Assembly (NCBI GenBank): GCA_001803205.1
Contig: MHBE01000060.1
Span: 1 to 55,148 of the forward strand
DNA from: Lentisphaerae bacterium GWF2_38_69
GTDB lineage: Bacteria; Verrucomicrobiota; Lentisphaeria; Victivallales; GWF2-38-69
DNA: 55,148 bases
Direction of reading: 5' to 3'
A program made the position numbers and the translations under genes. Positions within the stretch are counted from its first letter, which is position 1, and every line of letters begins with the position of its first letter. Below, piece after piece: positions 1-53,111 of the stretch. Under the pieces are notes generated by a model. It ran no database searches. It was not told where the DNA came from and saw only the letters and a list, made by a program, of their open reading frames with translations.

Positions 1-3000
1 AGCTCCTTCAATAAGATTATGTGCATGCAATGGTAGAAAATCAGGAATTTCCATATTCCATTCATTTTCAGAAAAATATTTTATTAATTTACATAACGAA
101 AAATTCATATCATTAATAGTTTTTTCATCAAAAAGTTCTTCCACATACATCCAAGTGCTTTCAAAGTAATCATAACAATCCACAGCCTGCAGATCTATCC
201 AAGCCTGAGAAGTTTGGCCATTCCAGACTCTCAGATCTATGTTTTCTGTTTTATCAAGGAACCAAATATCTTCTTTTGCAGTTTGATTATTTTTAAAAGA
301 CATTTTTTGTTTTCGGGCGGTAAAAACAATAGGAGACACAGCGCTTTGCGGATTTAAATTGTTTTTTTTAATTAAATTTTTCTGTACAGTCACCCCAGAA
401 ATTAAATTACTATGTTCAACATCTTCCCATAATTTTTTATGATTGAATTCTACATTTGATAAAAAGGTTTTATCTGGGAAAGCTTCAAAGTCATACACAA
501 TAGTTGAAGTAAAATCACCGTAAAGTTTTTCTACATTTTCACATAATCCTAGCCTATTAAATAATGTTAAAGTTAATAAAAAATCCGAATTAGAGCTCCA
601 GCGTTTAATTACTAAACCAAACAATGTCATAATAACCGAAGAAGGCGAAACTCCATATTTAAAAGCCTGTTCTTTAAAATTTAGCCAATTTGTTTTTTCT
701 ATTTTTAGGGTATGAAGTTTAAATGTAGGTTTTATTATATCTTCAGGATTCATCAACAATGAGAGCTTGGGTCTATCAGGATAATTTGAAAGCCTTTTTT
801 CCCAGTAAGCTTTTTCTTCATCATACCATAAGGAGCTTTTTAAAGATTCATAAGCAACCATATAATCACGGAAAGTCACTTGACTATAAATCTCAGGTTT
901 ATAGCTAATATCATTGTAAAGACAATGTATAAGGTTAAATAATTTTATACGACTATCAACATCAAGTAATATCAGGTCTATACTTATATGCAGTATGTAA
1001 TATTTAGAGGTTTTAGTAACTTGAAAATCAAACAAAGGATAGTTTGTAGTATCATAAACTTGACGAGATAATTTCAACGCTTTAGCTTTTAGAATATTAC
1101 ATACTTCTGATTCTGGCTTGCCTGACAAGTCTTCAAATTTGATTGAATACTGAGGTATGTTTTTGGAGTAACATTGAGTGAGTGTGTTTATATTAAATGT
1201 AAGAGTTAACTCCGGGACTAAATGAATTATTTTATTTATAACTTTATTTAATAATTCTATATCAAGATGTTGGTATTTATATTCGTTGTAACTATGGTTA
1301 GCTATATTGCCAATCTCAAATGAAGCACCTCTTCCTATCAAGTAAGCTTTTTGAATATCAGACATTGGGAATGGATCAAAACTAGCACCATCATCATGCC
1401 CGACCTGCATTGAATGTAAATCTTTAATCAGTGTTTTCTCTAAAACAGACTGATTTTTTTTAATACAAACTACTAATTTCTCTATTGTTTTTGCATTAAT
1501 AATGTCTTTTGGAGAACAAGGCAAACCTATACTGGACAGACGTGAACTTAACTGAATTCCTAATATTGAATCCCCACCTATTTTGAAAAAATCATCAAGT
1601 AAACCAATTTTTTCTATACTTAATAAATTTTGCCAATTTTCTGCTACAAGTTTTTCAATATTATTTCTTGGTTTGACATATTTTATGAAAGTATTTTCTC
1701 TTTTTCGCGATCCGCTATTTATAATAAATTTATTAACTTCATCAATACTATTTATTTTCTCAGCAAACGCTTTGATTGCATTTATTTCCTTTTCTGTCCT
1801 ATTGTTAGTTTTTACTGCCAATTTAGTAATTGGTTTTTGATCGAAAATTTTACTAAGTTGTTTTGAATTAAAACAAATATTTACCGCATCGTCTACTGAA
1901 ATAGAAAATATTATTTTATTATCTTTGAATGACTCATTTTGATTTTTAATATTTTTTAAAAAATTAAAAATAGGAATGTTTTTCCCGCTATGTGCAAAGT
2001 CTATTTTAATGTTATTAATATTTTTAGATTTTGCAAAATGTCCAACCTCTCTTAAAAATTTATGTTCTACGCCTTTACCAAGAATCCTGCAACTTAAAAC
2101 AAAAGATTCAACAACAAAATCATTATTATTTAAATATCCAATAATAGCTCCTACCAACCCATAATCACCAAACCTATCATTTACTTTTACTGTAAAAATT
2201 ATAAACCCATCTTCATAAAGTAATTTTTTAATTTCATCTTCACTTCTTCTTATTGTTGTAGAGTTAAACTGGTTTACGCGCTGCGTTAGCTGCGCAACTC
2301 TCGGTATATCATCAAAATTAATAGCCTCAACTAAAATTTTTAATTCTAATTCCTTTATAAATTCTTCAAAATTAAAATGTTCTTTTCTAATATTCTCTCT
2401 CTTAATATTGTCCCGATACTGCTTTGTTCTTATCTTATCTTCATCAGTAGCTGTTAATACATCAAAAGCCCAGACATTCTTTAGAAAACGCTCTAGTAAC
2501 AGGTTACCTTTTGGGATATTTAGCGTAAGAACTTCTGGGAGCTTTGATCTTATCTCTGCACATTCAACAGGATTATCATCAATAAAAATAAAACTATCTA
2601 ACCCTAAATTTAATTCAGTAGCCAGATCATATATATTCTTAGACTTTGCATTCCAGTTTATCTTCCAATTAGCTAAATGTTCTTTTCTTAATACCATTTC
2701 TTTGTTTTGCTCAAAAACTTTAAATACATCTTCTTCAGTATTCTTACTGCATAAACAAATTAAAATACCGTTTGTATACATATCTAATATTTTGTTCTGA
2801 AAATCACGCCTAACTGTATCAATTTCTATTTCGTAATTTTCAGATTCTCCGCAAACTCCTTTCCAAAGGGTATTATCGCAGTCCACTACCAATACTTTAT
2901 AAGGTAATTTTATTAATGCGTAGACTCTACGTGCAAGAAACATTCCTAGGATATTATAAAAACAACTCGTATAAGATATATGGCCCTCTTTATACCCTGT

Positions 3001-3534
3001 ATAATTAAATATTTCCTCAAAATCTTCAAAACCTAACACGTCATTATAAGATAAAATATAGTCTTCTTTCATTCTTAACTTAAGCTCTGCTAAAAGGCTT
3101 GATTCTAATTCTAAGATTTCCTGTTTGGATTCAAGATTATCATCGATAATAATTGAAGGACATAAGCAAAGGATAGTTTTAGTCGTTCTATTTTTTTTAT
3201 AATTTTCAAGAGCACATAAAAAGCTGTTGATATTTGATTTTAGTCTTTCTAAATAAACCATTTTGTTCTCAATTTTACTATTTGGAACCCAGTCAGTAAG
3301 GGAAAACAATATGATATTTATCCCTGATTCATTCATATGAAATTTACTCGCTTCAACTAAAAGCTCTTGAAATATCTGGTTGTATGAAGAGAACTCAACA
3401 TTACAATTAATGCCCAATTCAGATAAAAAGCATTTTAGAGCTACTTTTATTGGTTCTGGTGTAAAAGATGCAGATATCACTATATTTAAACAAAACAAAG
3501 AGTCTTCTCTTTTCTGAATTTCATAAGAATCCAT
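1..3534 (-). CDS. NRPS, N-terminal part: FkbH starter domain, carrier protein, heterocyclization domain (runs off left edge)
   Basis: Reading the minus strand from an ATG at 3534 (AAAGGA Shine-Dalgarno just upstream) gives 1178 codons without a stop to the window edge. Residues 1 to about 200 look like the N-terminal region of FkbH proteins. A HAD motif DCDNTLWKGVCGE starts near residue 218, and QLTQRVNQFN, DRFGDYGLVG and SCRILGKGVE complete the FkbH signature. A carrier domain has GGDSILGIQLSSRL with the phosphopantetheine serine at about 656. A cyclization-type condensation domain follows: FPMSDIQKAYLIGR near 722, DLILLDVDS near 853 (the DxxxxDxxS active site of heterocyclization domains), then GDFTSTIVYDFE, PIVFTARKQK and SQAWIDLQ. 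FkbH proteins of known pathways load a glyceryl unit from 1,3-bisphosphoglycerate onto a carrier protein. Cy domains condense and cyclize Cys, Ser or Thr. I infer a glyceryl-primed thiazoline or oxazoline product. The adenylation domain should lie beyond position 1. Confidence 0.9.
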   Translation of the reverse strand, partial: MDSYEIQKREDSLFCLNIVISASFTPEPIKVALKCFLSELGINCNVEFSSYNQIFQELLVEASKFHMNESGINIILFSLTDWVPNSKIENKMVYLERLKSNINSFLCALENYKKNRTTKTILCLCPSIIIDDNLESKQEILELESSLLAELKLRMKEDYILSYNDVLGFEDFEEIFNYTGYKEGHISYTSCFYNILGMFLARRVYALIKLPYKVLVVDCDNTLWKGVCGESENYEIEIDTVRRDFQNKILDMYTNGILICLCSKNTEEDVFKVFEQNKEMVLRKEHLANWKINWNAKSKNIYDLATELNLGLDSFIFIDDNPVECAEIRSKLPEVLTLNIPKGNLLLERFLKNVWAFDVLTATDEDKIRTKQYRDNIKRENIRKEHFNFEEFIKELELKILVEAINFDDIPRVAQLTQRVNQFNSTTIRRSEDEIKKLLYEDGFIIFTVKVNDRFGDYGLVGAIIGYLNNNDFVVESFVLSCRILGKGVEHKFLREVGHFAKSKNINNIKIDFAHSGKNIPIFNFLKNIKNQNESFKDNKIIFSISVDDAVNICFNSKQLSKIFDQKPITKLAVKTNNRTEKEINAIKAFAEKINSIDEVNKFIINSGSRKRENTFIKYVKPRNNIEKLVAENWQNLLSIEKIGLLDDFFKIGGDSILGIQLSSRLSSIGLPCSPKDIINAKTIEKLVVCIKKNQSVLEKTLIKDLHSMQVGHDDGASFDPFPMSDIQKAYLIGRGASFEIGNIANHSYNEYKYQHLDIELLNKVINKIIHLVPELTLTFNINTLTQCYSKNIPQYSIKFEDLSGKPESEVCNILKAKALKLSRQVYDTTNYPLFDFQVTKTSKYYILHISIDLILLDVDSRIKLFNLIHCLYNDISYKPEIYSQVTFRDYMVAYESLKSSLWYDEEKAYWEKRLSNYPDRPKLSLLMNPEDIIKPTFKLHTLKIEKTNWLNFKEQAFKYGVSPSSVIMTLFGLVIKRWSSNSDFLLTLTLFNRLGLCENVEKLYGDFTSTIVYDFEAFPDKTFLSNVEFNHKKLWEDVEHSNLISGVTVQKNLIKKNNLNPQSAVSPIVFTARKQKMSFKNNQTAKEDIWFLDKTENIDLRVWNGQTSQAWIDLQAVDCYDYFESTWMYVEELFDEKTINDMNFSLCKLIKYFSENEWNMEIPDFLPLHAHNLIEGA

Positions 3535-3743: not shown

Positions 3744-5039
3744 TTAAGCTGAACGCCTCAAAAACAAAAAGATGAAAATATTTTCAAGGGACTTGAGCCC
3801 TTTATAGCAAGTACTATCGAAAATAGGATTCTCGTAAACCTCATTACTGATTTTTCTTCTGATATCTCCAAAGGAAAAAAGGCTTGATCTGGCAGAAACA
3901 TATTTTCGTTCCGGCGCTTTTGTCTGTTTTAAAGCATAGAGCCAAGCCGCGGTCTGAGCAATGGAACAAAGTTCAAAATGATTTTCAACGCTTTCTCTTT
4001 TTCTTGCCTGATTATCTATTGCCCCAAGTTCATGCTTGAGTTCCTTAAATCCGCTTTCAATCTTCCATCTGGCCGAATAGTATTCTATCATCTGCTTTGC
4101 GCTCAGAGATAAGTCTGTTGAGACTATCGGAAAGATATATCCATTCCTGTTATAAATCAGAACCACCTTGACCTGTCTCATAAAGCCCCTGTGCATGGCT
4201 ATGAATTCTGAATATTCGCATTCCCTTTTCCTTCCGTAGATCAAAAGGCTCTCTTTTATTCTTTCAAGACTCCCGGTCATCTCGTATAACTTTGGAAGTT
4301 TCTTTCCGTACTTGCGTTTCCGCCCTTTTTTTCCGGTATCTTCTACGCTAACTTCACAGAGCCGAGTGTCCTTTCTAAGCCTCGTAAGGATATTGATTCT
4401 TTCAACAAGTTCTTTGCCCAGCTCTTTAATCAGAGTTTTATTCCCGAACCAGCTGTCTGTGGCAATAAGGATATTGCATGAGAATCTTTCACTTGCCTGG
4501 CGTATGAGCTTGCCTGCTATTTGTAGCTTTGTCATAAAATGCTCTTTGTCAACTGACTTCTTGAGCCTGTAAAGGCCATTGCTTATTGGCAGGCATGCCC
4601 AGCGATTGTGTATAAAGGCAAGAACTCCCAGAAGAACACGGCAATGACCATGGATGTATTTTGAGGAATTAATCTTAGAAGCATGGTCATAATGAGAGTC
4701 GCATCCTGCTATCTTCCTGCCTGTTTTTCCATAGGTTGTGTCGTCCAGCAACAATATTAACCGTCCTGCAGTCATTAGAGATTCTCCAAACATTGCCAGC
4801 AATCTATCCCATACCTTACCAAGAGGAAGTTTTCCTGATTGGAGAAATCCATAAAAACATCTCCGGCTTATCCCCATGGAAAACATCAGTAGCTCAAACA
4901 TCCTGAAGATGCCGCTAATGCACTTATTGCTTTCTCCAACAATCATTCCGATTATCACAGCTTTGAATATTGCTTTCCTGTACTTTGGAATCTCTCCTGA
5001 TATTGTCTCAATAAGATCTTTGAACTTTACCTCTGCCAT
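3744..5039 (-). mobile_element. IS4-family transposase
   Basis: A 431-residue DDE transposase. The first catalytic aspartate is in LLLDDTTYGK (99-100), the second in IATDSWFG (about 195), and the glutamate in YSARWKIESGFKELK. The last matches the IS4 signature Y-x2-R-x3-E-x6-K, with Y321, R324, E328 and K335. The frame is intact, so the element may still be active. Base composition is less AT-rich than the NRPS gene to its left. I could not identify terminal inverted repeats or a target duplication by eye, so the ends of the element are undefined. It separates the NRPS gene from the exporter operon and lies beside a truncated folE2, so it may have taken part in rearranging this region. Confidence 0.88.
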
Positions 5040-5689: not shown

Positions 5690-6337
5690 ATGTATTCAGA
5701 AGTAATTGAAAACCCAACGTTGATTTTAAAACGACTTTTAGCTATTTATGAAGTAACTCCGGCAGAATTAGCCAGAAAGATAGGAGTGCATCGTGCTACA
5801 ATGTTGCGAATAATAAATGGAGATATCAAAAAAATCAAAGAAGAATATTTTAAATCAATAGCAGAATATTTTTCTCTTACTATAGATCAGATAAAGGGAC
5901 TAAAACCTATTTATTGGGAAAATATAAAAGGAGTCCTCAACCTTCAGGTGGGTAGGCGTATACCAATTTATTCCTGGCAATTGGATGGGAATAAACTGGT
6001 TCCAGAAATTATGGACAGAACAGAATTAACAACATTAACAGACATTGAGGTAAGCGATAATGCTTTTTCTCTAATAATAAAAGATTCAATAATGGAACCA
6101 CTATTCCCAAAAGGAACGATAATCATATGTGATCCAATCAAAGAAGTAACTAATGACGCCTATGTTGTCGTAAAATTGCACAATTATAATCAATTAATCC
6201 TCAGGCAAATATTAATAGATATTGATTATAAATATTTAAAAGCACTTAACAAGACACTTAATGCTAGTATGAGAATAATGACACCAAAAGATAAAATTTT
6301 GGGAGTGGTCGTACAGAGCAAATATGATTTTCATTAA
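5690..6337 (+). CDS. XRE-type repressor with S24/LexA-like C-terminal domain
   Basis: 215 residues. The N-terminal helix-turn-helix (about 12-65) reads LAIYEVTPAELARKIGVHR and is Cro/CI-like. The C-terminal half (about 88-210) has the S24 fold signature, with S133 in KDSIMEPLFPKG at the nucleophile position of LexA/CI proteins. Where the catalytic lysine is expected, about 39 residues later in NQLILRQI, I read an arginine, so self-cleavage may be lost. It is the first gene of a plus-strand run ending at 10713 and probably controls it. The start is the first ATG of the frame; no good Shine-Dalgarno is visible. Confidence 0.8.
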   Translation: MYSEVIENPTLILKRLLAIYEVTPAELARKIGVHRATMLRIINGDIKKIKEEYFKSIAEYFSLTIDQIKGLKPIYWENIKGVLNLQVGRRIPIYSWQLDGNKLVPEIMDRTELTTLTDIEVSDNAFSLIIKDSIMEPLFPKGTIIICDPIKEVTNDAYVVVKLHNYNQLILRQILIDIDYKYLKALNKTLNASMRIMTPKDKILGVVVQSKYDFH

Positions 6338-6364
6338 AATAATAAGGATGTTTTAATAATAAAA

Positions 6365-6883
6365 ATGACAACAAAAATACTTCGTTCATTTTGGGATATA
6401 GTTAGACTTTTTTTCTTATCTTACAAAGACAATAACCAGCAATATCCTTATAGACTAGTTGAAGTCAAGAAAAGTAACAAAGAAGAGCACGTTCTGACAA
6501 TAAAAATAACTAATAAAAATGCTATCTTTAATCAAAAAGCTATTGATCTTGTTAATGACGATGTTACCCTAAAAGGGTTTTCCGCATATGACATAAGGAC
6601 TATATGTTACTATGCTTTTACAGATCATAATAGCCCCCAATTTAAAATAATTTCTCAACTTTTTACGCCAGATGCTAATGGTATGTTAACATTAAAAAAA
6701 AGAGGGGAAAGAGAGTTTATAAAGAAACATGTTACTGACATTGTTTGTAATGAAAAAATTATTCAATCTATCCATTCTAAAGATGCTGTCCGCCTAGGAT
6801 ACATAAAAGCAAAAACTGAAGAATTAGAAGATAATTTAGAAAAAGAAAAATTAAAAAAAGAACTTCAAAGTTTTAATTCATAG
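6365..6883 (+). CDS. Hypothetical protein, 172 aa
   Basis: I do not recognise this protein. It has no signal peptide or membrane segment. The N-terminal half is mixed alpha/beta, and the last 35 residues are charged and helical (KTEELEDNLEKEKLKKELQ), likely a short coiled coil. It lies 27 bp after the XRE-S24 gene and 19 bp before the exporter, so it is probably co-transcribed with them. An AAGGATG sequence upstream is rather far from the ATG for a ribosome site. Confidence 0.65.
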   Translation: MTTKILRSFWDIVRLFFLSYKDNNQQYPYRLVEVKKSNKEEHVLTIKITNKNAIFNQKAIDLVNDDVTLKGFSAYDIRTICYYAFTDHNSPQFKIISQLFTPDANGMLTLKKRGEREFIKKHVTDIVCNEKIIQSIHSKDAVRLGYIKAKTEELEDNLEKEKLKKELQSFNS

Positions 6884-6902
6884 ATTTTTACCTAGGCTTA
6901 CA

Positions 6903-8429
6903 GTGCTTAATAATATACGAAGTATAAACTTAAAATGGATAGTATTAATAGGGATGTCCCTTTTAATTTTTTTAGGAAACTTTGATTTTACAGCAGTAGC
7001 TTTAGTCTTGCCTCAAATATCAAAAAGTTTTGGATCGGATCTATCGAGATTACAATGGATAATGATAAGCTATATTATTGCTTCAGCATCATTCATTATA
7101 ATAAACACGCAAATATGTAATTTTTTCGATAAAAAGTATATATTCATTATAGGGTGTATGCTTTTTTCATTAACATCCTTGTTTTGTGGTCTTTCTTTTA
7201 ATGTAGATATATTAATTACAATGCGATTCTTGCAAGGAATAGGATATGCTCTTACATTTCCATTAATATATGATTTTGTATTTAGTATATTTCCTAATGA
7301 AGGACGAGGATTTGCTATAAGTGTTCTACACTTCACAACAGGAATAGCTCAAACAGTAGGGCCTGTTCTAGGTGGAGTTATTTCTTATTACTTCGGTTGG
7401 CGCACTGTTTTTTTTATTAATTTTCCAATATGCGTACTTATCATTTTTTTTACTATTATGAATTTACCTAAGGATAACTATCAAAAGAAGTCAAGTTTAT
7501 TAGGAGTAAGCAATGCGTTTCTTATGTTTTTGATTATAGTGACTTTAATGCTTGTATTGAATCAAAATCTTTTTGAATTAAACAAGAATATAATTAAAAA
7601 CACTTTCTGGGGAATATTTATCTGTTTGATACTATTAATTATCTTTATTTTTAGAGAAAAAAACAACCCAATTCCTGTTTTTAATCGCTCATTATTGTTA
7701 GATAAACAATTTATAAGAATTAATATAATAAGATTTTTCATACAAATAATTTTCGTAATATTTATATTCATTCCTAATCTTCTTCTACAAAATATACTAG
7801 GATATAGCAGCACTTTTACGGGCATAATATATTCTTCTATGACATTGGTTTTTGCTATGTTCAGTATTATTTCAGGAAAAATCATAGATCGTCATGGACC
7901 AAAGTATCCATTAATAACCGGAATAATAAGTTTAATTTTAGGATGTTTATTTTTAGTTTTTTTACCATACACATGTTCCCTTTCAATAATCTTCTCATCT
8001 TTTATAGTAATAGGAATCGCATTGGGCTTAACATTTCCTAGTAGTTTATTCATTTGTCTGAGTAACACAAAAAAAGAAAACAGAGCAGCAGCATCAAGTA
8101 TTTTCTTAATGAATGCTTTGTTAGGATGCTCTTTTGGTGTAGCATTTTCCGGACTCATTTTATCAATTACAACAAAGTTTAAACTTTATAATATTTTAAA
8201 TATAGGCAAATTAAGCCTAAACAATATACAAGAAACATTGTTAGGCAAATTAATGACAGGAGTAGAACCGCTTAAAAATGTAAGCTCTCATATTTTAAAT
8301 ATTGATCTTATTCATTACGCAACATCCAGTTTTTTAATTTCGCTACAAATAATTATGCTTATATGTCTCATGATTTCAGTTGTTGCGTTATGGTTAAGTT
8401 TTAAATTGTTTAGGAAAAAAGTGATTTAG
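6903..8429 (+). CDS. MFS drug/metabolite exporter, DHA2 (14-TM) type
   Basis: 508 residues with about 14 hydrophobic segments. The N-terminal part carries FLGNFDFTAVALVLPQI, RLQWIMISYIIASA, MRFLQGIGYALTFPL and GPVLGGVISYYFGWRTVFFIN, which are hallmarks of the EmrB/QacA group of proton-driven exporters. A GTG start at 6903 is used; the next in-frame ATG is inside the first membrane segment. It sits between a regulator and small tailoring-type enzymes, consistent with export of, or self-protection against, a small molecule. A link to the NRPS gene across the transposase is possible but only inferred. Confidence 0.85.
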   Translation: MLNNIRSINLKWIVLIGMSLLIFLGNFDFTAVALVLPQISKSFGSDLSRLQWIMISYIIASASFIIINTQICNFFDKKYIFIIGCMLFSLTSLFCGLSFNVDILITMRFLQGIGYALTFPLIYDFVFSIFPNEGRGFAISVLHFTTGIAQTVGPVLGGVISYYFGWRTVFFINFPICVLIIFFTIMNLPKDNYQKKSSLLGVSNAFLMFLIIVTLMLVLNQNLFELNKNIIKNTFWGIFICLILLIIFIFREKNNPIPVFNRSLLLDKQFIRINIIRFFIQIIFVIFIFIPNLLLQNILGYSSTFTGIIYSSMTLVFAMFSIISGKIIDRHGPKYPLITGIISLILGCLFLVFLPYTCSLSIIFSSFIVIGIALGLTFPSSLFICLSNTKKENRAAASSIFLMNALLGCSFGVAFSGLILSITTKFKLYNILNIGKLSLNNIQETLLGKLMTGVEPLKNVSSHILNIDLIHYATSSFLISLQIIMLICLMISVVALWLSFKLFRKKVI

Positions 8430-8431
8430 CT

Positions 8432-9139
8432 ATGAATTATCAAAACACAGAAAAGTATAATTATAAATTTCTTTTAATGTTTATTATTTTTTATATTTCT
8501 ACTTTTCCTCTTGTAGGGTTAAGTCTGCATAAACCTGTAGTTTTAGGGCCATTGCACTTACAAGCTAGTTCTTTAATTTATCCTCTTACCTTTTTCTTAG
8601 CCGATATTATCACTGAAGTTTACGGTTATAAAATCAGCAGACAACTTATTTGGTGCCAAATCCCTTGTACTATTTACTACCAATCAATTCTTCTTTTAAT
8701 ACTATTTGGAGTACCAACTCCTGTAAATTGGCAATATCAATATGCGTATGATTATGTATTTAAAGGAATGGGAATTATAGGATTTTTTGGAGATTTCGGA
8801 TTAGTAATTGGTTTCTTTCTAAACAGTTTTTTGATCTCAAAGTGGAAAATACTATTAAAAGGAAAGTATTTTTGGCTAAGAGCAATAGGAGCTAGTGTAT
8901 TAGGCGAAAGTATTCAATTAAGCATTGGTCTAATAGGAACGTTTTTTGCAAAGATATGGACGCCAAGTGAAATTATAATACTGTTCAGCAATGTAATAAT
9001 TTTTAGACTAATAATGACTATAATATTATCTGGGCCAGCAAATATTATTGCGACGCTACTAAAGAAGGTTGAACGTACTGATATATATGACTATAAAACA
9101 AATTTCAATCCATTTATTTTCTATATTAAAAATGAGTAA
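8432..9139 (+). CDS. yhhQ: VUT-family queuosine-precursor transporter (YhhQ-like)
   Basis: 235 residues, about six membrane segments. The family's conserved FLADIITEVYGYKISRQLIW is at about residues 55-75, with the later glycine-rich helix RAIGASVLGESIQLSIG. YhhQ proteins import queuosine precursors (preQ0/preQ1). It starts 2 bp after the exporter stop, so the two are translationally coupled. Its place between an exporter and a hydrolase is unusual for a queuosine salvage gene; it may import or export another purine-like compound. A folE2 remnant lies 3 kb to the left; FolE2 acts at the start of queuosine synthesis. Confidence 0.75.
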   Translation: MNYQNTEKYNYKFLLMFIIFYISTFPLVGLSLHKPVVLGPLHLQASSLIYPLTFFLADIITEVYGYKISRQLIWCQIPCTIYYQSILLLILFGVPTPVNWQYQYAYDYVFKGMGIIGFFGDFGLVIGFFLNSFLISKWKILLKGKYFWLRAIGASVLGESIQLSIGLIGTFFAKIWTPSEIIILFSNVIIFRLIMTIILSGPANIIATLLKKVERTDIYDYKTNFNPFIFYIKNE

Positions 9140-9163
9140 TTATATCAATTAAAAGGAATTCTT

Positions 9164-9943
9164 ATGAGCAATAAAAACTTGCTTTATTACGAAATACATG
9201 GAGAAGGAGATCCCCTTTTGCTAATTAGCGGATTGAACGCAGATCATTTTTTCTGGATACCAGTTGCTAATATCTTAAAGAAATATTTCAAAGTAATCAT
9301 CTGTGATAATAGAGGAGTAGGTGAATCTCAATTTTTCGAAACTCCATGTACAATAAATTTAATGGCTAATGATGTTCTAGAATTATTAAACCACTTAGAT
9401 ATTAAACATACACATGTCATCGGGCATTCTCTTGGGGGTTGTATTGCTCAACAGATTGCCATTAGTAATCCTGAATATATTGATAAATTAGTCCTATGTT
9501 CTTCTGAGTCAAAAATATCTCCTTTACGCGAGTATTATATTCGAACATCTATGGAATTAATGAAATCAAACAGTCCAAGAGAACTTATAGTAAAAAATGC
9601 TTTGTCTTGGTTATTTACTGGTGATTTTTTACAAGACAATACAAAATTGCAAAATTTAATTACACTTTCACTCGCAAAACCTTTAGAAGAAAGTCGACGT
9701 AGTTTTTTTTATCAGTCAGATGCTTTATTTAAAAACAACACAGCTAACAAACTTGGAGAAATTCATTCTCCAACATTAATTATTAATGGAGAGGATGATA
9801 TATTAATCCCTCTAAAAGATGCACTTTTCCTAAAACAACATATTGCATATTCGATACTTACTATCGTTCCCAAAATGGCACATATGCTTCCTCTTGAAAA
9901 CCCAGAACTATTTTGTAAATATATATATAATTTTTTAATTTAA
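9164..9943 (+). CDS. Alpha/beta-hydrolase fold enzyme
   Basis: 259 residues. The core shows the oxyanion-loop segment PLLLISGLNADHFFW, the DNRGVGES turn, the nucleophile elbow GHSLGG with Ser at about 89, an acid in NGEDDILIP and a histidine in KMAHMLPLE. This order is that of enol-lactonase/esterase-type hydrolases. AAAGGA lies 8 nt before the ATG. In an operon with an exporter and a methyltransferase it could be a thioesterase- or esterase-type tailoring enzyme; the substrate cannot be read from the sequence. Confidence 0.82.
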   Translation: MSNKNLLYYEIHGEGDPLLLISGLNADHFFWIPVANILKKYFKVIICDNRGVGESQFFETPCTINLMANDVLELLNHLDIKHTHVIGHSLGGCIAQQIAISNPEYIDKLVLCSSESKISPLREYYIRTSMELMKSNSPRELIVKNALSWLFTGDFLQDNTKLQNLITLSLAKPLEESRRSFFYQSDALFKNNTANKLGEIHSPTLIINGEDDILIPLKDALFLKQHIAYSILTIVPKMAHMLPLENPELFCKYIYNFLI

Positions 9944-9948
9944 CAAAA

Positions 9949-10713
9949 ATGCAAGGCTCAAACATTCCAAATGACATAGTCCCTGGATTGGTTCCTACCA
10001 TGAATCAATATGGGCTAATGACTAAAATTTTTGATATTTATACTAAAAAATTTATTAAATACACATTATCACTAGAAAGTGAAATTCATGTTGCTGAATT
10101 GGGTGCTGCTTATGGAGCTGTAACACAAGAAATAATCAGACATAACAAAAAAGTAAAAATTACAGTAAATGATTTAGATAAAAGACATTTAACAGTATTA
10201 CAAAAAAAAATCAAAAATCAAAATAATTCTATTCAAATTAAACCTAAAATAGTTATTGGGAGACTCCCTGATGGAATAAACTTTGCAGAAAATACCTTTG
10301 ATGCAATTTTGGCAGCAAGAGTAATGCAATATCTTCTCCCAAGAGATCTAATAAAAGCTTTAAAAAAAATTAGACTATGGTTAAAGCCAAAGGGTAAATT
10401 ATTTTTAGTAACAAAGACGCCCTATATTAAAATGTTAAGTACATTCATTACTACATATGAAAGAAGAAAAAGCAGAGGAGATCGATGGCCAGGTGTAATC
10501 AAAGATTTTAACCAAAGATTTAATCATGACATTTCTATATCCCATATTGTGCCTAAATTTATTCATGTGTTCGATCCAGATATTTTAAAACGAGCATGCA
10601 TTGAATGTGGGCTAATAATAGAAGAATGCTCCTTCATAAATCGCAAAGACCTTCCTTTAGACATTAGGCTTACAGGAAAGGAAGAAGTCGGATTAATAGC
10701 GCATAAAGAGTAA
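9949..10713 (+). CDS. Class I SAM-dependent methyltransferase
   Basis: 254 residues. Motif I is AELGAAYGAVTQEI near residue 50, the acidic end of strand 2 is TVNDLDKRHL, and the post-I region has FDAILAARVMQYL followed by LKPKGKLFLVTK. This is the Rossmann-like methyltransferase layout. The ATG is 5 nt after the previous stop with no separate Shine-Dalgarno, suggesting coupled translation. It is the last gene of the operon. The substrate is unknown. Confidence 0.8.
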   Translation: MQGSNIPNDIVPGLVPTMNQYGLMTKIFDIYTKKFIKYTLSLESEIHVAELGAAYGAVTQEIIRHNKKVKITVNDLDKRHLTVLQKKIKNQNNSIQIKPKIVIGRLPDGINFAENTFDAILAARVMQYLLPRDLIKALKKIRLWLKPKGKLFLVTKTPYIKMLSTFITTYERRKSRGDRWPGVIKDFNQRFNHDISISHIVPKFIHVFDPDILKRACIECGLIIEECSFINRKDLPLDIRLTGKEEVGLIAHKE

Positions 10714-10832: not shown

Positions 10833-11228
10833 TTATAGTTGAGTAAAGTAATTTCTCTTTGTGTTATACAGGAACAGGTAAGATTTTTTGGTTGAATCAT
10901 TAAGGAATGATCTGCCTATAAGGGTTTCGACAAGGGATTGTCTTTCAAGGAAAGGTTTAAGCAGCTTTTCAATTCTTTGAGATGAAACTCCGATCCTTTT
11001 TCCAAACTCAATAAAGTCTTCTCTTCCTGGATGACCGTTTACCTTGCAGTGATAACTTTTGAAATCATCGGAGAAAAGACCTTTATCGAGGGCAAAATCA
11101 CTGTCATTTACATGTATTTTAGAATTAATCATGTCATACGCTGGGTTCAGAAGATAGTCGCTCTTGTACGATTCAAGAATAGAAAAATTTTTCAAGTTGG
11201 TGTCACTATTGGAAAAAAAGATAGTTAA
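10833..11228 (-). pseudogene. hipA: hipA remnant: catalytic loop and C-terminal part only
   Basis: The minus-strand frame is open from a stop near 11229 to 10833. It begins FLTIFFSNSDTNLKNFSIL, which is the HipA kinase catalytic loop, and continues with LLNPAYDMINSKIHV and FALDKGLF, typical of the HipA C-terminal domain. Full HipA toxins are 400 or more residues; about two thirds at the N-terminal side is missing and no HipB antitoxin gene is near. An ATG at 11195 would give 120 residues, starting inside the active-site loop. The loop has Asn where HipA proteins usually have His (N-x-D-x-H). I take it as a decayed toxin gene. Confidence 0.75.
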
Positions 11229-14625: not shown

Positions 14626-17622
14626 ATGTTATCAGGAAAAGCTTTTACAAATGGTCAGGGATATGCTGAGAACCATCTAAAATCTAATGACTACTACGAA
14701 AAAGGGAAGAGTGTAACAGGTTACTGGCTGGGGAAAGCATGTAGTGATTTTGGTGTTCAGGAAGGGCAAGTTGTAACTGATAAAGAATTTGAAGCACTAA
14801 GGAACAATATGAATCCAGTAACCGGAGAACAGTTAACTCTTAGAAATAATACGACACGAACAGAGTCTATAACTCTTGGCAATGAATTAGTGTCAAAAGA
14901 AATTTCCAATAGAAGAAGTTTTTATGATTTTACGATGTCTGCTCCAAAAAGCTTTTCTGTTATGGCTGTTACTCTTGATGACAGCAGAATCAGAAACTGG
15001 CATGACAGGGCTGTAAGAAAAGCAATATCCGAGATGGAGCATTATACATCAAGACAGGAGCATAAAACAGAAGATGTTGAGAAAACCGGAAAGTTCTGCA
15101 GCGCCTATTTTAAGCATGATGCAAACAGATCTCTTGAACCTCAAATCCATGATCATATTGTCATATTCAATGCAACTCCTTCAGCTAGTGGAAATAACTA
15201 TGCGATAGAGTTCGGAGAGTTCTACAAACGATGCAAATATATAACGGCGGTCTATAGGGATGAACTTGCAAAAGAGGCTATCAAAGGCGGTTATGAGATT
15301 GAGATAGACGATCAGGGAGCACCGCAAATTAAGAACACAGAAGATATTATCAGACATTTTTCCGGAAGAACCAGAATTATTGAAGATCATGTAAAAAGAA
15401 TTGAAGACGAGATAGGAACTGTTCTTAGTAATTCGCAGAAAAAACTCATTTCATTTGCTACCAGAGGCTTTGATGAAGATAAATTTAAAAGCCTATACAA
15501 CGAAGCTAAAAATGGCCGGAACTGGACAAAAGAATCATTTTTCAATGAATACCTGAAATTTATCAGCAGAGCAAGCGACTCAGGTCTAGTTGAAGCAACT
15601 ACACCCGATGTGATAGAAAACCAAAAGAAAAGCCTATCAGAAGAACAACTGATGAGATTGGAATACATTTTGGAACAGTCAATCCGGCGTGAATATCAGA
15701 TGAAAACAGAACAATCAGAGAGAATATCTTCTCATAATTTAAGAGAGTCTATGGATTACTCTAAGGATCATCATTTTGAAAGGAAGAGCGTCATCAAGGA
15801 TTATGACTACTTCACAACTGTGCTAAATCATTCATTGGGACGGGGGACTGATTTGAAAATGATGAAGAATTATCTTTCCTATATGATGGAAGATAATGAG
15901 CTTATCAAAATTAAAGATGAAATAGCCACGAAAAAGCACCTTGAGCAGGAACTGAATATTATAAACTATATCAAAGAGGGCAAAAACAAATTCAAGGGAA
16001 TTCTCAAAAAGGATTTTAATTCCTCTGAAAAACTTAATGAGGAACAGAAAATCGCCGTTAATGAGATCATTTCTTCAGAAGATCAGTTTAATGCTTTAAT
16101 AGGCAGAGCAGGAACAGGCAAGACTTTTACTGTCAGTGAAATAGTCAGAGCCAATATAGAAAATGGCTATGATGTTCTTTTATGTGCTCCATCTAATGGA
16201 GCCAGAGATGTATTGCGAGAGGACGGAATAAAAATAAAAACTGATTACAACCAACCATTGACGGCCAAAGCATTTGAGGAGGCTGTTTCATTACAAAAAT
16301 TACTTGTGGATGAAAGTCTGCAATCTATATATAAAGCAAACTCTCTTATCATTCTTGATGAAAGCGGAATGGCTTCACTAAAACAGCTTAATGATCTTGG
16401 AGTGCTTGCAAGAAAAAACAACTGGAGAGTGCTCCATGTGGGGGATATTAGGCAGCATATCTCCGTTGAAGCCGGAGACGCATTCAGGATTGAACTCAAA
16501 TATTCTGATATAAAAAGATGTCAACTGAAAGCTATCCAAAGACAGAAAAAAACAGCGATGAAAGGCAAATACAGGCAAATAGCAATAGACCTTGCCTTTG
16601 GACGGATAGCAGAAGCTTTTAATAGCCTTGATAATATCGGAGCCATTATCGAAGTTAAAAACTATGATATGTATAAGAAACTGGCAGAAGAATACATCCA
16701 ATACTATGCACAAGACAAAACCGTTATTGTTGTTAATACAACACATAAAGAGAATTTGTTAGCATCTGAGGCAATAAGAGAAAAGCTTAAAGAAAAAGGA
16801 TTAATCAGAGATGAACGAAAGGTGACCGTTAATATCCCTTTAAACTGGACTAATGCACAGAAAACAGAGTATAAGAACTATAAGCCTAGAATGATTATAG
16901 AATCTGTAAGAGGAAAAGATAAAGGGCATTTTTGGACAGTTGAAACTGTTGATCCCAGCAAAGGTTTGGTATGTATTTCATCAAAAGGAGAGCGACAGAC
17001 TTTCATCAAAGATAATCTCAAATTTTATGATGTGTGCGTCCCTAAAGAAATCATGCTTGGCATTGGCGATAAAATCATGCTTAGAACTGGAGAGAAAAAC
17101 AGAACCGGGGAATTAATTAACGGTGAAATATTACAGGTCAACGGATTTGACAGTTCAGGAAATATCATCACAAATGACAACAAAGTGATTACGACCAGAA
17201 AATTTACATACGGATATGCGTCCACTTCTCATAAATCACAGGGGAGGACAACTGAATCCGTTCTGATAGCCTTTGACAGGTTTTCCGTAAGATTTGCTGA
17301 TAAGAAAACAGCCTATGTCGCTGGAACCAGAGGAGTAGAAGAGATGAAAATCTTCTGTGAGAACAAACAGGACTTGATAAAAATCGACAGTAAAGAAGGT
17401 GACAGAAAGTCTGTACTGGAACTCGTTGAAAATAAAAGACATGAAATCTCAGAGAACAGAAAGACTGGTATTATTAATGCCTTATCCGAATTCACAAGAA
17501 AAATTAAGCAGAAGTTGAATTTGATTTTAGGATACAATAAACAAGAGCATAGCTTTTCAAAAGTCATAAATTTTGAAGAAAAACTCCAGCCAGGACGCTA
17601 TATGGCCTATGGCGTAGATTAA
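14626..17622 (+). CDS. MobF-family conjugative relaxase-helicase (TrwC/TraI type)
   Basis: 998 residues. The N-terminal relaxase has a tyrosine pair (NDYYEKG, Y23-Y24), TMSAPKSFSV, and histidines in PQIHDHIVIFNAT (about 175-177) for metal binding. The C-terminal half is an SF1B RecD-like helicase: GRAGTGKT near 495, ILDESGM near 578, and YGYASTSHKSQGRT plus YVAGTRG near the end. Such enzymes nick oriT, stay bound to the 5' end and unwind the strand for transfer through the T4SS. It starts 16 bp after the TraM-like gene. Length is typical of TrwC (about 970). It should act with the coupling protein at 51531. Confidence 0.92.
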   Translation: MLSGKAFTNGQGYAENHLKSNDYYEKGKSVTGYWLGKACSDFGVQEGQVVTDKEFEALRNNMNPVTGEQLTLRNNTTRTESITLGNELVSKEISNRRSFYDFTMSAPKSFSVMAVTLDDSRIRNWHDRAVRKAISEMEHYTSRQEHKTEDVEKTGKFCSAYFKHDANRSLEPQIHDHIVIFNATPSASGNNYAIEFGEFYKRCKYITAVYRDELAKEAIKGGYEIEIDDQGAPQIKNTEDIIRHFSGRTRIIEDHVKRIEDEIGTVLSNSQKKLISFATRGFDEDKFKSLYNEAKNGRNWTKESFFNEYLKFISRASDSGLVEATTPDVIENQKKSLSEEQLMRLEYILEQSIRREYQMKTEQSERISSHNLRESMDYSKDHHFERKSVIKDYDYFTTVLNHSLGRGTDLKMMKNYLSYMMEDNELIKIKDEIATKKHLEQELNIINYIKEGKNKFKGILKKDFNSSEKLNEEQKIAVNEIISSEDQFNALIGRAGTGKTFTVSEIVRANIENGYDVLLCAPSNGARDVLREDGIKIKTDYNQPLTAKAFEEAVSLQKLLVDESLQSIYKANSLIILDESGMASLKQLNDLGVLARKNNWRVLHVGDIRQHISVEAGDAFRIELKYSDIKRCQLKAIQRQKKTAMKGKYRQIAIDLAFGRIAEAFNSLDNIGAIIEVKNYDMYKKLAEEYIQYYAQDKTVIVVNTTHKENLLASEAIREKLKEKGLIRDERKVTVNIPLNWTNAQKTEYKNYKPRMIIESVRGKDKGHFWTVETVDPSKGLVCISSKGERQTFIKDNLKFYDVCVPKEIMLGIGDKIMLRTGEKNRTGELINGEILQVNGFDSSGNIITNDNKVITTRKFTYGYASTSHKSQGRTTESVLIAFDRFSVRFADKKTAYVAGTRGVEEMKIFCENKQDLIKIDSKEGDRKSVLELVENKRHEISENRKTGIINALSEFTRKIKQKLNLILGYNKQEHSFSKVINFEEKLQPGRYMAYGVD

Positions 17623-51530: not shown

Positions 51531-53111
51531 ATGGATATTTCTAGCACAGTCGAAAATATTTTCGCATTTGCCAGAAATTATCCTGAAAAATGCCTGCCTC
51601 TGTTGATGTTCGGACTGTCTGTTTTGGCTATCAGAAACATAGAATCAATTACAGAACAACCCTTAAGGCTGATAAAATTCTGGCTGCCATGCATAGGTTT
51701 GATAGTTTCTTCTTACATGTTTTATACATCTTTTCATGATAATATAGCTGTAATGATTGTCATACCTTCTATCGGAGTGCCGTTGGTTTATCATCTAAGG
51801 AAAAGTAAGACTATCAGTTTTGATAAAGGCAAAACAGTTTTAACTCTCTCAAGTCTCAAATGGGACTTGAGAGAATTCTGCAGAGGTTGGCTTATTACAG
51901 GTGAAACCGGAAGCGGAAAAACTTCCGGAGCTATCCAGACAATCTACAGGCAGTTGTTTAAATATGTTCCTGACTGGGGTGGTCTGATTGTTGACGCCAA
52001 AGGTTCATGTTATAGGGATATAGAAAAAATAGCGCCTGAATTTAACATGGCTGATAAAATTATAACTCTTAAGACAGGTCAAAATATCAGACATAAGTTT
52101 AATCTACTTTCTTACAGGAAAATGCCATGGCATACTTACGCTCAGCTGATAGCAAATGTGGCTTCATCAATGGGGCAGGCAAAAGGTATGGGAAGTACTG
52201 AAAATTTCTTTAAACATCAGGCAACTATTGCCATCAGATATGCTATGGAATTATTAGACAAGATATATTTGCTTGAAGGAAATAAGCGCCAAGTTACCCT
52301 GAAAGCTATAAAGGACATCCTATCAGAAAAAGGTATTAACAAACTATTTGAATCATTGCCGAAACAATTGTATGAGGATGAAGCAGTTAAATACTTTGTC
52401 GAAGATTTTCTTGAACAATCAAAAAAGGCTCCTCAACAGTTTCAGGGAGTTGTTTCAACTATCAACAACTACTTATCTCCATATACGGATGACGAAGTTG
52501 TAGAAGTATTTTGTTCAGAAGACAGCACTTTCAATTTTGAGGATATTGATAATGGGAAGATTGTCTGTATTGCTGTATCAAATGTTTATTCTCAAAGGAA
52601 TTACATCAATACTTTTATGAAACTTCTTTTTTATTACCATGCCCAGCTAAGAGAAGATTTATCCATTGCAGATAAAGAAAATAAAAATCTCCTGGTCTTC
52701 TTTGCCGATGAAGCCCAGGCTGTTGTTACGAGTGCTGAAGGTATGGATGATTCGACTGTTGTGGACAAAATAAGAAGCACATATTCAACAGTCGTTTTCA
52801 GCACTCAAAGTACAACTAGTTTTCTGAATAAGCTGGACGTTTATAAGACAGAAACTTTGCTTCTTAACCTCTGTAATAAAATTTATTTTCGACAGGCAGA
52901 TGAACGGGCTGCTAAACTTGCAGAATCAGATCTTGGCAAATCTGAGGTTTTCCAGAAACAGTCTTATGGTTTTTCTCAGAATAGGGGGAATGTAACCTAT
53001 CAGAAAAAAGAAACTGGGGAATACAAATATTTCGACCTTCGCAAATTAGCTGACTTCGAGTGCGTGGTAAAGCACTGTAAGGGATTTGTAGTTAAAGCAT
53101 TTCTAAAGTAA
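51531..53111 (+). CDS. virD4: VirD4/TraG-type coupling protein
   Basis: 526 residues. Two N-terminal membrane segments (CLPLLMFGLSVLAIR, FWLPCIGLIVSSYMFYTS), then Walker A ITGETGSGKTSGAIQTIYR (near 124), GLIVDAKGSCYRDIEKIAPE, Walker B LVFFADEAQAVV (near 390) and STVVFSTQSTTSFLNKL. Coupling proteins bring the relaxase-DNA complex to the secretion channel. It closes the transfer operon. Confidence 0.9.
   Translation: MDISSTVENIFAFARNYPEKCLPLLMFGLSVLAIRNIESITEQPLRLIKFWLPCIGLIVSSYMFYTSFHDNIAVMIVIPSIGVPLVYHLRKSKTISFDKGKTVLTLSSLKWDLREFCRGWLITGETGSGKTSGAIQTIYRQLFKYVPDWGGLIVDAKGSCYRDIEKIAPEFNMADKIITLKTGQNIRHKFNLLSYRKMPWHTYAQLIANVASSMGQAKGMGSTENFFKHQATIAIRYAMELLDKIYLLEGNKRQVTLKAIKDILSEKGINKLFESLPKQLYEDEAVKYFVEDFLEQSKKAPQQFQGVVSTINNYLSPYTDDEVVEVFCSEDSTFNFEDIDNGKIVCIAVSNVYSQRNYINTFMKLLFYYHAQLREDLSIADKENKNLLVFFADEAQAVVTSAEGMDDSTVVDKIRSTYSTVVFSTQSTTSFLNKLDVYKTETLLLNLCNKIYFRQADERAAKLAESDLGKSEVFQKQSYGFSQNRGNVTYQKKETGEYKYFDLRKLADFECVVKHCKGFVVKAFLK

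Follow-up and report, generated by a model that had tools for sequence, protein, structure and literature searches.

Glycerate loading by FkbH domains has been reported in NRPSs, as in the case of vioprolide (PMC8949500; cited in PMC10099666), and in the vioprolide, corramycin and cystomanamide synthetases, as proposed for the gene analyzed here, FkbH replaces an A domain and loads glycerate onto an NRPS carrier (PMC8949500, PMC10099666). According to the same papers, the vioprolide and corramycin lines comprise the order FAAL-ACP-C-FkbH-T and, unlike the present gene, place a condensation domain ahead of FkbH (PMC8949500, PMC10099666). AerB from the suomilide/varlaxin pathway, a member of the aeruginosin family, shares with our gene an FkbH-PCP unit serving as the NRPS starter module, but its glycerate is methylated/sulfated, the next module adds Ile and no Cy domain is described. 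The fusion of FkbH to an NRPS, regarded as unusual in itself by the first-pass annotation, is thus used by the vioprolide, cystomanamide, corramycin and suomilide/varlaxin systems alike. With regard to heterocyclization (Cy), the bacillamide synthetase BmdB provides the closest solved Cy domain, with catalytic residues that align with those of our gene; this synthetase is not known to contain FkbH and uses an amino acid as the starter.

The window, the whole stretch of 55,148 nucleotides analyzed here, corresponds to an entire contig (C60) of an assembly of 66 contigs and 3.12 Mb, the window edge being the contig edge. An open frame of 1178 aa, with an ATG start and no stop up to this edge, comprises the following features:

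1..3534, minus strand: 5' part of the NRPS gene (FkbH N-terminal region, FkbH, PCP and Cy), exiting the contig
2902..3534, minus strand: N-terminal region of the FkbH unit, aa 1-211, bearing the family motif [AS][TS]FTxEP (alignment, pattern)
1939..2901, minus strand: FkbH (HAD-IIIC glyceryl transferase/phosphatase) domain, aa 212-532, with DCDNTLW at aa 218-224 (TIGR01686, 288.8 bits against a cut-off of 146.65, 5e-86)
1471..1647, minus strand: peptidyl carrier domain, aa 630-688, with GGDSI and the pantetheine Ser656 (PF00550)
73..1380, minus strand: Cy domain, aa 719-1154 (PF00668, solved relatives, tree)
952..978, minus strand: Cy active-site motif DLILLDVDS (DxxxxDxxS), aa 853-861 (motif reading)
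319..321, minus strand: Thr1072 of SPIVFT, matching the cyclodehydration Thr of BmdB Cy (alignment)
193..195, minus strand: Asp1114 of AWIDLQ, matching the cyclodehydration Asp of BmdB Cy (alignment)

The occurrence of FkbH, a carrier and Cy in one chain that runs off the window edge, as originally annotated, is borne out by the three domain models (TIGR01686, PF00550 and PF00668) and the open frame, and the DxxxxDxxS motif, which takes the place of HHxxxDG, is complete, as had been claimed. The FkbH domain preserves the HAD motif with the catalytic Asp and is probably a loader of glycerate onto the adjacent carrier, as predicted from its sequence. The FkbH-PCP unit precedes an NRPS condensation-type domain within the single chain, the arrangement of an FkbH-primed NRPS of the vioprolide and aeruginosin type. 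This last domain matches the condensation superfamily (PF00668) at aa 755-1154, and its best solved relatives are the Cy domains of BmdB (4.9e-53), EpoB and HMWP2. In a tree of 34 domains (18 Cy rows versus 16 C rows) it falls inside the Cy clade with an SH-aLRT of 100, on a long branch, and T1072 and D1114 align with the Thr/Asp cyclodehydration pair of BmdB. By these sequence comparisons, the domain is a Cy and not a C domain, with its catalytic residues intact.

Four AMP-binding matches are present in the genome, only one of which, located on the 20854-base contig C41, adjoins an NRPS/condensation domain. At the right end of C41, an A domain is represented by its last third (AMP-binding_C), which is followed by a carrier and a stop, in the same direction as the window gene; the next protein, of 2428 aa, displays the order TubC-type docking (TubC_N)-C-A-PCP-KS-AT-ACP-TE and is followed by a type II thioesterase, a Bcr/CflA MFS exporter, an alanine racemase (alr) and a PPTase. 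The racemase was considered as the sole supplier of D-Ala and dropped, the genome holding four racemase-like genes. GC and GC3 are 0.29 and 0.216 for the window gene and 0.31 and 0.217 for the C41 megasynthase, with a GC of 0.364 for the remaining window; codon usage of the window gene matches the C41 part at 0.96, barely higher than the 0.943 obtained with an unrelated window gene. Searches of both contig ends against the own genome disclosed no linking contig, and the assembly lacks about 400 aa of the first A domain together with the specificity code (ca. 398 aa by the template of a cyanobacterial locus, L059). Judging from the sequence on either side, the window gene almost certainly continues on C41 across a gap lacking sequence coverage, a join supported by the matching domain order of L059. 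Extension of the contig to the left in order to read the A code, proposed in the first-pass annotation, would through this join recover the C-terminal third of the A domain and a PCP, whereas the code itself falls in the gap. Read by eye, the second A domain on C41 carries the code DMIQATLVWK, which matches no known code with confidence and is Gly-like at best.

The L059 locus, from the uncultured cyanobacterium Ki2-D3 bin-0622 (CAIPYC010000128.1), displays FkbH-PCP-Cy-A-PCP in one 1772-aa frame and TubC_N-C-A-PCP-TE in the next, the second A code being Val-like when read by eye. The window gene aligns with it at 33% across aa 13-1175, the C41 end at 40% (4e-41), and the second C41 subunit at 35% with its counterpart. 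If the join is correct, the two lines have in common FkbH-PCP-Cy-A-PCP in one chain followed by docking-C-A-PCP; they differ in that L059 (i) is missing the terminal PKS module of the C41 line and (ii) has lost the first Asp of the Cy motif. At 12113-13333 of L059, this Cy domain carries Tyr for the first Asp of DxxxxDxxS (YALIIDAWS) and keeps the Thr/Asp pair. A second cyanobacterial genome (G771, contig 327) encodes FkbH-PCP-Cy-A-PCP-TE in one chain, as part of a larger line. In contrast to the window gene, its FkbH is internal, after a C domain and a PKS, and an oxidase-like insert lies within the A domain, so that a thiazole is expected. The line spans 12002-44780 as a PKS-NRPS with two cysteine-code Cy-A modules, one of them after the internal FkbH-PCP. 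In both loci the A domain that follows FkbH-PCP-Cy shows the code DLYNLSLIWK, read by eye, which we take to be a cysteine code.

A scan of genome contigs with the protein alone gave no matches, whereas one based on an alignment around the FkbH N-terminal motif succeeded. Outside the own genome, FkbH-PCP-Cy was found in 2 of the 386 cyanobacterial genomes sampled, one of which had been picked as a centre, and, at the thresholds used and with some of the partial-length matches inspected, no case turned up among 379 Myxococcota, 398 Bacillota and 387 further genomes from the own phylum; on this sampling, the order seems uncommon. A Chroococcidiopsis plasmid match was rejected as the same architecture because FkbH and Cy lie on separate genes, and Polyangium, Calothrix, Paenibacillus and other FkbH-PCP matches were rejected for HHxxxDG C domains or the absence of Cy. 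Within the same phylum, the FkbH starter of one genome (G277) leads into a PKS in a single chain, FkbH-ACP-KS-AT-ACP-aminotransferase-C-A-PCP-TE, and another, of the same class as the window genome (G373), encodes FkbH-PCP alone as an ORF, next to a PKS that carries AT, aminotransferase and C domains and is truncated by the contig end; both were set aside. The FkbH domains of the three FkbH-PCP-Cy proteins do not group in the FkbH tree, so L059 is treated as an analogue in order and not a proven orthologue, and FkbH-PCP-Cy may have been assembled repeatedly or through shuffling.

The surroundings of the gene within the window comprise the following additional features:

5690..10713, plus strand: low-GC (0.291) divergent block with an S24/HTH regulator, a protein of unknown function, a DHA2 MFS exporter, a Vut_1 transporter, an alpha/beta hydrolase and a methyltransferase (domain models, GC)
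14626-17622: TrwC-type relaxase of a conjugative element
51531-53111: T4SS coupling protein of the conjugative element

The divergent block may be part of the NRPS cluster, with possible tailoring and export genes. An IS701-family transposase (3744-5039; GC 0.41 versus 0.29 around it) lies directly upstream of the NRPS gene, and a short ORF at 10833-11195 shows a weak, sub-threshold HipA C-terminal match, perhaps a fragment. The conjugative element (11479-55148), which also carries a TrbI/VirB10-like gene, a type III restriction-modification pair and an AbiEii toxin-like gene, lies next to the NRPS gene, and the assembly line may therefore be mobile.

Taken together, we consider the window gene to be the first subunit of a glycerate-primed hybrid NRPS-PKS that makes a glyceryl-thiazoline extended by a second residue and a C2 unit, with a probability of roughly 0.7. 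According to this proposal, FkbH would dephosphorylate D-1,3-bisphosphoglycerate (or a 3-phosphoglycerate) and load D-glyceryl onto the adjacent PCP; Cy would condense the glyceryl thioester with the amino acid that the following A-PCP supplies, most likely Cys and less likely Ser/Thr, and cyclodehydrate the adduct to a 2-(1,2-dihydroxyethyl)-thiazoline-4-carbonyl thioester; the second C41 subunit would add a second residue and one unreduced C2 unit, presumably derived from malonate; and TE would release the chain. The C41 portion of the first A domain shows no oxidase insert, so the ring should remain an azoline. The original prediction of a glycerate-primed azoline thus gains support, with FkbH feeding Cy and then an NRPS A domain, by strong inference across the assembly gap.

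The choice of Cys stays provisional because the specificity code is missing from the assembly. Any of Cys, Ser or Thr can serve as a Cy substrate (PMC8949500), and with the code of this A domain falling outside the assembly the same line could load Ser or Thr to give a glyceryl-oxazoline or methyloxazoline; the cysteine code in both readable equivalent A domains, those of L059 and G771, argues against this, and we regard it as unlikely. The gap itself could hold an insertion sequence within the A domain, in which case the gene would be broken and the cluster decaying. The contig break does fall inside the A domain, transposase genes lie beside both parts (the IS701-family gene and several transposase-like ORFs at 1-8200 of C41, read by eye), and short-read assemblies commonly break at IS repeats; nevertheless, both sides are open frames, stop-free up to the contig ends, and no near-identical copy of either end occurs elsewhere in the assembly. 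We regard disruption as a slightly less probable explanation still.

Least probable among these alternatives is a metallophore, in which glycerate and thiazoline would bind metal. Siderophores are products of many Cy-containing NRPSs, and an alpha-hydroxyl beside the azoline nitrogen can chelate; on the other hand, the annotated neighbourhood genes show only exporters, the Vut_1 transporter and the type II thioesterase. Among the subset of neighbourhood ORFs scanned, no siderophore receptor, uptake system, metal transporter or metal-responsive regulator was recognized, and the suggestion of a metal chelator in the first-pass annotation is left unsupported.

The glyceryl-thiazoline hybrid would, if correct, add a glycerate-primed azoline to known starter chemistry, and its predicted dihydroxyethyl-thiazoline would be searchable by mass spectrometry. 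The chances are about even that it represents an undescribed glyceryl-thiazoline-aminoacyl-ketide, from a line that primes Cy directly with glycerate and, lying beside a conjugative element, is perhaps mobile. No described NRPS product from Lentisphaeria, the class of the source bacterium, was found in the titles and abstracts searched. Likewise, no paper describing FkbH feeding a Cy domain, or the resulting product, was found in a literature search that covered only a minority of subscription journals and is weak evidence of absence. The architecture is consequently not tied to a known product in the searched literature, although the proposed search of other genomes places the order itself in the two cyanobacterial loci, to which no product is assigned here. 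Compared with the described systems, priming of an NRPS by FkbH has clear precedents, the direct step from FkbH into Cy being one of its uncommon forms, and the locus points to a small molecule made by an assembly line of known type, not to a new kind of system.
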